64,000 nt of DNA from Caldimonas thermodepolymerans. Its GTDB lineage: Bacteria > Pseudomonadota > Gammaproteobacteria > Burkholderiales > Burkholderiaceae_C. The stretch lies in assembly GCF_015476235.1 (NCBI RefSeq), contig NZ_CP064338.1:2418001-2482000 (forward strand). Reading direction: 5' to 3'. The notes under the pieces are model-generated. The model did no database searches, had not been told where the DNA came from, and saw only the letters and a list, made by a program, of their open reading frames with translations. Below are positions 11,713-16,555 of the stretch, piece after piece. The position numbers and the translations under genes were made by a program. The number at the start of each line of letters is the position of its first letter. The stretch's first letter is position 1.

Positions 11713-12351
11713 ATGGCCCCGACTCCTGCATCATCTTTGCGCATCGTCATCGTCGCGCCCGAGACCCTCAATCCGGACCCGTCGGATGTCGAAGCCGGAT
11801 GGGAGGCCGAGCGCTCGCGCAGCCTGCGCATCGGCCTGCTGCAAGGCGGCTACGACGTCGTCGCGGTGCTGCCGGCCGACGTCTTCCTGCCCGACCGCCT
11901 GGCGCAGATCCAGCCGGACATGATCATCGTCGACGCCGAAAGCCAGGCGCGCGACACGCTGGAACACGTGGTGGTGGCCACCCGCGACGCGCGGCGCCCC
12001 ATCGTGCTGTTCACCGACGACGACGACACCTCGCATGTCAAGGACGCGATCGCCGCGGGCGTGACGGTCTACGTCGTGGCGGGCCTCGCGCCCGAGCGCA
12101 TCAAGCCGGTGCTCGACGTCGCGCTGGCGCGTTTCCAGCACGAGGAAGCACTGCGCCGCGAACTGGCCAAGACGCGCACCCAGCTGCAGGACCGCAAGCT
12201 CGTCGAGCGCGCCAAGGGCATCCTGATGAAGCGCTACGGCTGCGACGAGCAGCAGGCCTACGAACGGCTGCGCAAGGCCGCGATGGACAAGGGCCTGCGC
12301 ATCGCCGAGGTGGCCCAGCGGCTGATCGACGTCGCCGACGTGATCGGCTGA
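11713..12351 (+). CDS. nasT: ANTAR-domain antiterminator, NasT-like
   Basis: This RNA-binding antitermination regulator has a receiver-like N-terminal domain (about 8-130, with DMIIVDAES at the usual phospho-acceptor strand) and a C-terminal ANTAR domain (about 150-210: LVERAKGILMKRYGCDEQQAYERLRKAAMD, with the family's AKG-LM pattern). The 212-residue length fits NasT. Family members bind paired hairpins in nitrate or nitrite assimilation leaders and prevent termination. Exactly such a leader follows 95 bp downstream before nrtA. NasT is usually held by the nitrate sensor NasS, which is not in this window. Confidence 0.85.
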   Translation: MAPTPASSLRIVIVAPETLNPDPSDVEAGWEAERSRSLRIGLLQGGYDVVAVLPADVFLPDRLAQIQPDMIIVDAESQARDTLEHVVVATRDARRPIVLFTDDDDTSHVKDAIAAGVTVYVVAGLAPERIKPVLDVALARFQHEEALRRELAKTRTQLQDRKLVERAKGILMKRYGCDEQQAYERLRKAAMDKGLRIAEVAQRLIDVADVIG

Positions 12352-12356
12352 ATGCC

Positions 12357-12371
12357 GCACCCGCATGGTGC
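12357..12371 (+). promoter_or_regulatory. NtrC-like binding site
   Basis: GCACC-N5-GGTGC forms a perfect dyad matching the core of the NtrC consensus (TGCACC-N5-GGTGCA). It is centred about 84 bp upstream of the predicted sigma-54 transcription start of the nrt operon, a sensible position for an enhancer-bound activator. A second, poorer half-site (GCACC) is at 12378-12382. Confidence 0.6.
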
Positions 12372-12421
12372 CGCAGCGCACCGATTGCGGGCCGAAAACG
12401 GCACCGGCGCCCCGTTGGCGC

Positions 12422-12437
12422 TGGCACAGGGGTTGCA
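12422..12437 (+). promoter_or_regulatory. Sigma-54 promoter of the nrt operon
   Basis: TGGCAC-AGGGG-TTGCA matches the sigma-54 consensus TGGCAC-N5-TTGCA at every conserved position, with GG at 12423-12424 and GC at 12435-12436 separated by 10 bp. Transcription should begin near 12448, immediately at the first leader hairpin. With the NtrC-like dyad upstream it indicates nitrogen-limitation control. Confidence 0.85.
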
Positions 12438-12446
12438 AGAGTCAGC

Positions 12447-12506
12447 GCGGGTATCAATGGCGATTCCCGCAGGAACTGCAGGTGCCGCACCGATCGCTGC
12501 ATCTGC
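12447..12506 (+). ncRNA. ANTAR-binding tandem hairpins in the nrtA leader
   Basis: Hairpin P1 (12447-12470) pairs GCGGG and ATC with GAT and CCCGC around a six-base loop AATGGC, with A at position 1 and G at position 4, the known ANTAR loop rule. After a 7-nt linker, hairpin P2 (12478-12506) pairs GCAGGTGC with GCATCTGC, then GC with GC, around loop ACCGATC, again A1 and G4 but seven bases. This two-hairpin plan is the known target of ANTAR proteins such as NasR and NasT. The encoded NasT-like protein lies just upstream. Confidence 0.8.
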
Positions 12507-12515
12507 GCCGGGACG

Positions 12516-12577
12516 AAGGCGTCCTCACCGTACCGCCCTTGCGAGCGGTCCGCGTGTGGACGCCTTTTCTGTTTTTT
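12516..12577 (+). terminator. Leader terminator controlled by antitermination
   Basis: AAGGCGTCC (12516-12524) pairs with GGACGCCTT (12558-12566), followed by TTCTGTTTTTT. The loop itself holds a small hairpin (ACCGC/GCGGT). The left arm can instead pair locally, GGACG (12511-12515) with CGTCC (12520-12524), which would block the terminator. It lies between the ANTAR hairpins and the nrtA start, so readthrough should need the antiterminator. Confidence 0.75.
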
Positions 12578-12598
12578 GCGATGAACACAAGGGTCGAG

Positions 12599-14801: not shown

Positions 14802-15608
14802 ATGAGCCGGCATTTCATCGACGTGCAGGACGCCGGGATGGTGTTCCACACGCGCAAGGGACGCTTCCACGCGCTGCGCGACATCCACCTCGGCATCGAG
14901 CAGGGCGAGTTCGTCGCGCTGATCGGCCACTCGGGCTGCGGCAAGTCCACGCTGCTCAACCTGATCGCCGGGCTGCTGAAGCCCACCTCGGGCGTGCTGC
15001 TGTGCGACAACCGCGAGATCGACGCCCCCGGGCCGGAACGCGCGGTGGTGTTCCAGAACCACTCGCTGCTGCCGTGGCTGACCTGCTACGAGAACGTTTA
15101 CCTCGCGGTCGAGCGCGTGTTCGGGCGTCGCGAGACCCGCGCCCAGCTGCGCGCGCGCACCGAGGCGGCGCTGCAGCTGGTCGGCATGGGGCACGCGATG
15201 GCCAAGCGGCCGCACGAGGTCTCGGGGGGCATGAAGCAGCGCGTGGGCATTGCCCGCGCGCTTGCGATGGAACCCAAGGTGCTGCTGATGGACGAACCCT
15301 TCGGCGCGCTCGATGCGCTGACGCGCGCCCACCTGCAGGACGAGCTGCTGAAGATCGTCGCCGCGACGCGCAGCACCGTGGTGATGGTCACGCACGACGT
15401 GGACGAGGCGGTGCTGCTGTCGGACCGCATCGTGATGATGACCAACGGCCCGGCGGCCACGATCGGCGAGATCCTGCGCGTGGACCTGCCGCGCCCGCGC
15501 GACCGCGTCGCGCTGGCCGAGGACCCGCGCTACATCGCCTGCCGCAAGCAGGTGCTGGATTTCCTCTACACCCGCCACGGCCAGGCCGCCGCGGCCCTGG
15601 CCGCATGA
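14802..15608 (+). CDS. nrtD: Nitrate-type ABC transporter ATP-binding protein
   Basis: This is the cytoplasmic ATPase of the transporter, 268 residues. Walker A is GHSGCGKSTLLN near residue 45, the Q-loop is FQNHSLLPWLTCYENV, the signature is VSGGMKQRVGIARALAMEP and Walker B is VLLMDEPFGALDALTR, followed by the switch His in VMVTHDVDEAV. It is a single ABC domain without the C-terminal sensor domain of NrtC, hence NrtD-like. The start MSRHFIDVQD follows GGAG. It ends the operon; a sigma-54 promoter starts 14 bp after its stop codon. Confidence 0.9.
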   Translation: MSRHFIDVQDAGMVFHTRKGRFHALRDIHLGIEQGEFVALIGHSGCGKSTLLNLIAGLLKPTSGVLLCDNREIDAPGPERAVVFQNHSLLPWLTCYENVYLAVERVFGRRETRAQLRARTEAALQLVGMGHAMAKRPHEVSGGMKQRVGIARALAMEPKVLLMDEPFGALDALTRAHLQDELLKIVAATRSTVVMVTHDVDEAVLLSDRIVMMTNGPAATIGEILRVDLPRPRDRVALAEDPRYIACRKQVLDFLYTRHGQAAAALAA

Positions 15609-15621
15609 GAACCCCCGGGGC

Positions 15622-15637
15622 TGGCACGCCGCTTGCG
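15622..15637 (+). promoter_or_regulatory. Second sigma-54 promoter, downstream of nrtD
   Basis: TGGCACG-CCGC-TTGC fits the extended sigma-54 consensus exactly at the conserved bases, with GG (15623-15624) and GC (15635-15636) 10 bp apart. It points away from nrtD toward a terminator 65 bp downstream, with no gene between. A weak NtrC-like dyad (GGTGC half-site near 15550) lies inside nrtD about 95 bp upstream of the predicted start. Confidence 0.7.
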
Positions 15638-15646
15638 TAAGGTACA

Positions 15647-15739
15647 GCGCACGCCACCCGGCGGTTTGCTCCTTGTCTCCTCAGGGCGTCTGCCCCTTCG
15701 CGGGCCTTTGCGCTTCACGGCGCAAAGGCCGCTTTTTTT
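15647..15739 (+). ncRNA. Candidate sigma-54-dependent small RNA
   Basis: A transcript from the 15622 promoter to the terminator ending at 15739 would be about 92 nt. It contains no ATG. The predicted layout is a 5' hairpin (CGCC/GGCG, 15652-15663), a single-stranded C/U-rich stretch around 15664-15683 (TTTGCTCCTTGTCTCCTC, resembling an anti-Shine-Dalgarno seed), a second hairpin (GGGC/GCCC, 15684-15695), then an 11-bp terminator hairpin with seven T. This is the classic architecture of a base-pairing small RNA. It is inferred only from sequence; readthrough from nrtD would share the terminator. Confidence 0.5.
15703..15739 (+). terminator. Intrinsic terminator of nrt operon and candidate sRNA
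   Basis: GGCCTTTGCGC (15703-15713) and GCGCAAAGGCC (15720-15730) form a perfect 11-bp stem with a six-base loop, followed by GC and seven T. It ends 3 bp before the convergent lgt stop codon. Confidence 0.92.
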
Positions 15740-15742
15740 GCC

Positions 15743-16555
15743 TCAGGCCCGGGCGCGCCGGGTGGCCAGGCTCCAGATCAGTGCACCAGCGACGATCATG
15801 GGCACGCACAACCATTGCCCCATGCTCATGTTCAGTGCAAGCAGGCCGAGGAAGCTGTCGGGCTCGCGGAAGTACTCGGCGATGAAGCGGAACACGCCGT
15901 AGCCGACCAGAAAGGCCCCCGAGACCTGGCCCGTGGCGCGCGGCCTGCGTGCGTACAGCCACAGCAGCACGAACAGCAGCAGCCCCTCGAGCAGGAACTG
16001 GTAGAGCTGCGACGGATGGCGCGGCTGCATCGAGCCGCTGTGCGGGAACACCATCGCCCAGGGCAGTTCGGGACTGGCGAAGCGCCCCCACAGCTCGCCG
16101 TTGATGAAGTTGCCGATGCGCCCGGCCGCCAGCCCCGTCGGCACGCAGGGCGCGACGAAGTCCATCACCTGCCAGAACGGCTTGCCGCGCGAGCGCGCGA
16201 ACCATGCCATCGCGGCGATCACGCCGAGCAGCCCGCCATGGAAGCTCATGCCGCCGCGCCAGACCATGAAGATCTCCAGCGGGTGGCCCAGGTAGTAGCC
16301 CGGCTTGTAGAACAGGCAGTAGCCGAGGCGCCCGCCCACGATCACGCCCATGATGCCGATGAACAGCATGTCCTCGACGTCCTTGCGCGACCAGGCTGCC
16401 GCCCCGGTGAGCGAGCGGTACGGCTCGTGCCGGAGCCGGCGCGTGGCGAGGAAGTAGAACAGCCCGAAGGCGACGAGGTAGGTCAGGCCGTACCAGTGGA
16501 TGGCCACCGGGCCCAGCTGCAGGGCCACGGGATCGATCTGGGGGTAGGTCAGCAT
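15743..16555 (-). CDS. lgt: Prolipoprotein diacylglyceryl transferase
   Basis: This inner-membrane enzyme adds diacylglycerol to the lipobox cysteine of prelipoproteins, the first step of lipoprotein maturation. The 270-residue protein has about seven membrane segments. Family motifs are [12 protein letters not shown] near the N-terminus, the Lgt signature [12 protein letters not shown] and [13 protein letters not shown] (essential Arg/Asn), and HPSQLYQ near residue 190. The product is probably needed for the two lipoproteins encoded in this window (BamC and the PAEQ protein). The LysR gene is upstream on the same strand, 40 bp away. Confidence 0.97.

Follow-up and report, generated by a model that had tools for sequence, protein, structure and literature searches.

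A conserved candidate sigma-54-dependent small RNA with an exposed anti-Shine-Dalgarno stretch in Caldimonas thermodepolymerans and related Burkholderiales

Described small RNAs and the Caldimonas locus

NrsZ of Pseudomonas is a small RNA that depends on NtrC and sigma-54, and the small RNAs CrcZ and CrcY relieve Crc-Hfq repression. CrcZ/CrcY, Qrr and GlmY/GlmZ are driven by sigma-54 together with an enhancer-binding protein; a link of CrcZ/CrcY to sigma-54 has been reported (PMC6292655). Other small RNAs, namely MmgR/suhB (RF00519, alpha-r8) and NfeR1 of Sinorhizobium, are anti-Shine-Dalgarno-like and tied to nitrogen status. In Burkholderiales, a described RNA with an exposed C/U-rich stretch is the betaproteobacterial toxic sRNA family RF02278 (bdhR1; Bordetella S17). 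S17 is made from a sigma-70-type promoter as a processed transcript and represses its targets, with Hfq, by pairing of exposed regions near ribosome-binding sites (PMC11722255). A 2022 review of nitrogen-related regulatory RNAs draws its examples from alpha- and gammaproteobacteria, cyanobacteria and archaea only (PMC9170634).

Here we describe a predicted small RNA (sRNA) of Caldimonas thermodepolymerans, encoded between nrtD (14802-15608, + strand) and lgt (15743-16555, - strand) in the window, the whole 64,000-nt stretch of DNA that was analysed. The features assigned to it are the following:

15622-15636, + strand: predicted sigma-54 (-24/-12) promoter TGGCACG-CCGC-TTGC, an exact match (TGGCACGCCGCTTGC)
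15648-15739, + strand: predicted sRNA of about 92 nt, its start placed about 12 nt past the -12 element (15647-15650) and its end at the T run
15652-15663, + strand: predicted 5' hairpin H1 (CGCC-ACCC-GGCG), folded with the core held open, weak in this genome
15669-15687, + strand: conserved C/U-rich core CTCCTTGTCTCCTCAGGGC, invariant across the genus bar one position
15676-15682, + strand: proposed seed TCTCCTC, complement of the Shine-Dalgarno sequence GAGGAGA, invariant in 41 of 41 homologues
15684-15695, + strand: predicted hairpin H2 (GGGC-GTCT-GCCC), with 93% of cells paired and one compensatory change (in G087)
15703-15739, + strand: predicted intrinsic terminator H3, with 11 pairs and a G-U followed by T7, based on folding and covariation

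The sRNA is like S17 in being short, in carrying an exposed C/U-rich stretch able to mask ribosome-binding sites, in its hairpin and terminator and in its occurrence in Burkholderiales; unlike S17, it is preceded by a conserved sigma-54 promoter, is predicted to form a 5' hairpin and finds no match in Rfam. With NrsZ it has in common a sigma-54 promoter and a proposed link to nitrogen, but it lacks an NtrC dyad (at most one mismatch, within 350 bp upstream) and has no Rfam match to any Pseudomonas sRNA. The sigma-54 promoter also differs from that of NfeR1, which is a sigma-70 promoter repressed by NtrC (PMC10746234). From their descriptions, CrcZ/CrcY, Qrr and GlmY/GlmZ differ from the sRNA in sequence, targets and bacteria.

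Rfam scans of the window and 13 homologue loci returned no family above threshold, and the homologue loci had no match at E<=1. In the same run RF02278 was recovered in a control locus, L190, at 53.5 bits (the toxic sRNA at 2027-2090 of that locus), and another locus, L189, matched RF02278 and anti-hemB below threshold at 1999-2076. The RF02278 covariance model did not match our sRNA, in which an exposed C/U-rich anti-Shine-Dalgarno stretch is nevertheless present (UCUCCUC 0.87 unpaired). A match of the window to RF00519 (suhB/MmgR) was rejected, as it reached 19.6 bits against a cut-off of 41 and did not recur in the homologues. The initial annotation had known of no described RNA at this position, and we likewise found none in Rfam or in the open-licence literature. 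A different RNA-like unit, with TTGTCTCCTC and a terminator, was seen after a phasin-like gene in several family genomes (L030, L037 and L044); it has an anti-Shine-Dalgarno motif in common with the sRNA and no Rfam match.

Conservation of the promoter and the RNA

A DNA search of 60 relatives turned up the RNA part in four genomes of the genus besides this one, and the resulting alignment of five sequences is invariant at TGGC, TTGC and TTGCTCCTT-R-TCTCCTCAGGGC. Three genus genomes (G004, G005 and G008) had no match with either of the two models used, and no sRNA unit follows nrtD in G004 and G005. Reading the stretches downstream of nrtD in family genomes added 15 homologues from other genera. 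A covariance model built from 20 sequences, with the promoter left out, reached >=35 bits in 38 of the 401 genomes of the family, with one copy each; among 274 class-level genomes it gave one weak match besides the window's own genome. The final set comprised 41 homologues, one per genome, in 16 genera (counted by genus codes), and 21 of them had not been used for the model. A strict fixed pattern of promoter plus core had two other matches in 399 order-level genomes.

The consensus promoter TGGCACG-N4-TTGC that had been proposed for this locus was found exactly at 15622-15636. The 3.86-Mb genome contains four copies of this string, close to the chance number of about two by base count, so it is conservation that gives the promoter its meaning. 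Its GGC and TG are invariant and its final C is kept in 37 of 38 aligned homologues. By pattern match, a -24/-12 element stands at a set distance before the RNA in 38 of 39 aligned homologues, and the promoter lies 34-41 nt ahead of the seed, a nearly fixed spacing. Because the first 20 homologues were delimited with a promoter-like pattern, these are partly circular, and the independent test is provided by the 21 homologues found with the model only. When NGGC[AC][CT]-N6-TGC was sought 31-43 nt before the seed, 19 of these 21 held-out homologues carried the element at the expected spacing, versus 0.07 expected from dinucleotide shuffles. Taken together, the comparisons make a sigma-54 promoter for the predicted sRNA well supported. 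Two other exact TGGCACGGGCCTTGC elements of the genome (L001 1501-1515 and L004 1501-1515) lie shortly ahead of apparent protein genes, whose products were judged by eye to be iron/2-oxoglutarate oxygenase-like and glycoside-hydrolase-like proteins.

The region without ATG or GTG and the 11-bp hairpin with T7 at its end agreed with what had been read from the sequence, where two short hairpins and a single-stranded C/U-rich stretch containing TCTCCTC had also been proposed. ATG and GTG are absent from 15647-15739, although TTG triplets occur at 15666, 15673 and 15708, and no reading frame is conserved. The terminator pairs 15703-15714 with 15719-15730 (12 pairs, of which 11 are Watson-Crick and one is G-U), and T7 follows at 15733-15739. 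The sRNA folds better than dinucleotide shuffles (z = -2.8; 4 of 200 shuffles as good). In the model UCUCCU is wholly unpaired in a loop, and in free ensembles UCUCCUC has a mean unpaired probability of 0.87, versus 0.38 for the remainder of the RNA.

The structure was assessed by per-sequence folding and by model-guided alignment. When its core is kept unpaired, each homologue forms H1, H2 and a terminator. H1 varies in sequence and measures 6-11 bp in most other genera; its segments are more stably folded than their shuffles (mean z -2.7; p<0.05 for 74%), and within the genus it is significant in one of five genomes, G006, and not in that of the window. In the model-guided alignment, which was fitted to the structure and is hence biased toward it, 88.7% of cells pair versus 69.5% in shuffles. 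Changes on both sides of a pair were found in 106 cells, nearly all of them in the terminator; shuffles gave 28 such cells and slid structures no more than 34. All 11 modelled terminator pairs have compensatory changes across the homologues, and two such changes are already seen in the stem in the five-sequence genus alignment. In the relatives, then, the promoter is kept in sequence and the terminator in structure only, the opposite of the outcome that the initial annotation had named as refuting its candidate sRNA. The comparison showed promoter, core, predicted hairpins and terminator to be conserved as one unit. We judge this to be a real and conserved family of predicted sRNAs that is apparently undescribed. 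Conservation gives strong support to its assignment as an sRNA that depends on sigma-54 and exposes a C/U-rich anti-Shine-Dalgarno stretch.

Genomic context and the nitrogen link

In the window, matches to TIGR01183 and TIGR01184 identify nrtB and nrtD as nitrate ABC transporter subunits, and Pfam matches identify an ANTAR protein (11713-12351), the NMT1-like binding protein nrtA, lgt and tsaD, the last of which lies nearby, ahead of the ANTAR gene and the nrt operon. The gene upstream of the sRNA is nrtD in 26 of 41 copies; in eight, tsaD is upstream with no intervening nrt operon, and the other seven have other or undetermined upstream genes. Downstream we found fdx in 21 copies and lgt in 14, both on the opposite strand, and a phosphoglycerate-mutase-like gene in four. 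The steadier neighbour is the downstream fdx or lgt rather than the upstream nrtD. The simplest reading of these arrangements is that the sRNA belongs to a slot running from tsaD to fdx or lgt, with the nrt operon as a frequent but not universal neighbour, and this weakens the argument from position for nitrogen control of the sRNA.

Sigma-54 control of the nitrate operon, on which that argument had been built, was supported: the promoter of nrtA contains a sigma-54 element (12422-12436) and, at 12357-12371, the perfect NtrC dyad GCACCCGCATGGTGC. The nitrogen-responsive role that had been suggested from the position after nrtD fared less well. A search of the 350 bp ahead of the sRNA promoter gave no NtrC dyad with one mismatch or fewer in the window or in any of the homologues, and for 15 of the 41 homologues a position after nrtD was not found. 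One dyad with a single mismatch occurs 465 bp upstream of the sRNA promoter, inside nrtD. No convincing conserved enhancer dyads were seen upstream of the promoter among the homologues; the dyads shared in this region were rejected as apparent coding sequence of nrtD or fdx. If NtrC is the activator, it may work without a good site or from a different place; alternatively, the sRNA may answer to some other activator. A nitrogen role of the sRNA is no more than plausible.

The nrtA promoter and leader (12357-12580 of the window) have features of their own. The NtrC dyad is 65 bp upstream of the sigma-54 promoter, and the leader is long and structured (z -3.3), ending in a terminator-like hairpin and a T-rich run just ahead of the start codon. 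It weakly matches the Pseudomonas sRNA P11 (21.7 bits, cut-off 70), and, given the ANTAR protein encoded next door, it looks like an antitermination leader.

Proposed mechanism and alternative explanations

The best explanation, and one we hold to be probable, is that the locus is an independent gene, with its own terminator, from which sigma-54 RNA polymerase makes a trans-acting sRNA that would block Shine-Dalgarno sequences by UCUCCUC pairing. From sequence we infer transcription of the sRNA, its pairing mechanism, a part for Hfq, its targets and a nitrogen signal. Sigma-54 RNA polymerase would transcribe the sRNA from its own gene up to the intrinsic terminator, and the transcript would fold into three hairpins that leave UCUCCUC exposed (in the genus within CUCCUUGUCUCCUC). 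The exposed sequence would most likely pair with a set of mRNAs at their purine-rich Shine-Dalgarno regions (GAGGAGA and variants), blocking translation, probably with Hfq. The sRNA would be switched on when a sigma-54 activator fires, plausibly at nitrogen limitation. S17, with its pairing near ribosome-binding sites, is a precedent, and we regard an anti-Shine-Dalgarno mechanism as likely.

Candidate targets were sought by complementarity. The 11-mer CCCTGAGGAGA is found in this genome opposite the sRNA and nowhere else but in the leader of a gene that we take to be DUF2069-like. TGAGGAGA lies shortly ahead of ATG in six cases here and 18 in C. mangrovi, with at most one for the reversed pattern, an excess that is to be expected from ribosome sites and is no proof. 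The tctB-like orthologues of both species carry TGAGGAGA just ahead of ATG. Duplex energies with the sRNA, uncorrected for length or selection, are -23.4 kcal/mol for the tctB-like leader, -31.1 for the DUF2069-like leader and -14.8 for a generic ribosome site. Across five Caldimonas-group genomes no long complementary site (16 nt, at most two mismatches) recurs near orthologous genes. The candidate targets therefore depend on short seeds, and any ribosome site with GAGGAGA would match these. Transporters are enriched among seed-complementary leaders, which is only a hint, the background frequency of such ribosome sites in transporters being uncontrolled. Just ahead of nirB in G227 (L129), the leader ACGAGCCCTGCTGAGGAG is perfectly complementary over 18 nt to the sRNA core of G298 and G124, and over 13 nt to G227's own sRNA. 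As a general target nirB was rejected, since other nirB leaders are without this complement.

Several other explanations were weighed. That the sRNA is merely the 3' untranslated region of the nitrate operon with its terminator, the promoter-like sequence being incidental, would fit the strong terminator and the position directly after nrtD here and in most homologues; we consider it very unlikely, as the promoter is kept at nearly fixed spacing and the whole unit also occurs after tsaD or other genes with no nrt operon ahead. Since the unit persists without a preceding nrt operon, it is more than the operon's 3' end. Still less credible is a short peptide read from a TTG start, for which the three TTG triplets in the transcript could be cited: ATG and GTG are absent, loop indels that are not multiples of three disrupt any common frame, and conservation resides in structure and seed.

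The remaining two concern origin and mode of action. The sRNA could be a divergent RF02278 member of common origin that gained a sigma-54 promoter, and both do have an exposed UUGUCUCCUC-type motif followed by a hairpin and terminator; the true RF02278 member in L190 even scores weakly with the sRNA covariance model (29 bits). This descent seems improbable, if the least so of the alternatives, because none of the 13 homologue loci reached RF02278 at E<=1 in the run that recovered L190, the promoter type differs and the sRNA has an additional 5' hairpin. Slightly less probable again is that the sRNA titrates a protein (Hfq or another RNA-binding protein) in the manner of CrcZ instead of pairing with Shine-Dalgarno sequences. 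CrcZ/CrcY set the precedent, and proteins could bind to the U tail and to the single-stranded pyrimidine tract, but there is one short conserved exposed tract only, no protein motif is repeated, and it is the bases able to pair with Shine-Dalgarno sequences that are invariant.

A broader version of the pairing mechanism can be put forward tentatively, as a possibility that we think has the odds against it: an undescribed Burkholderiales sigma-54 RNA family may silence many mRNAs that carry GAGGAGA-type ribosome sites, often those of organic-compound transporters, at nitrogen limitation or upon another sigma-54 signal, and may thereby couple nitrogen status to carbon uptake. The sRNA raises the sharp question of the identity of the enhancer-binding protein that drives it. 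Alongside the S17/toxic sRNA family it would be a second anti-Shine-Dalgarno RNA, under separate control, and, as a conserved sRNA driven by sigma-54 in 16 genera, it would supply a betaproteobacterial candidate for a nitrogen-related RNA.
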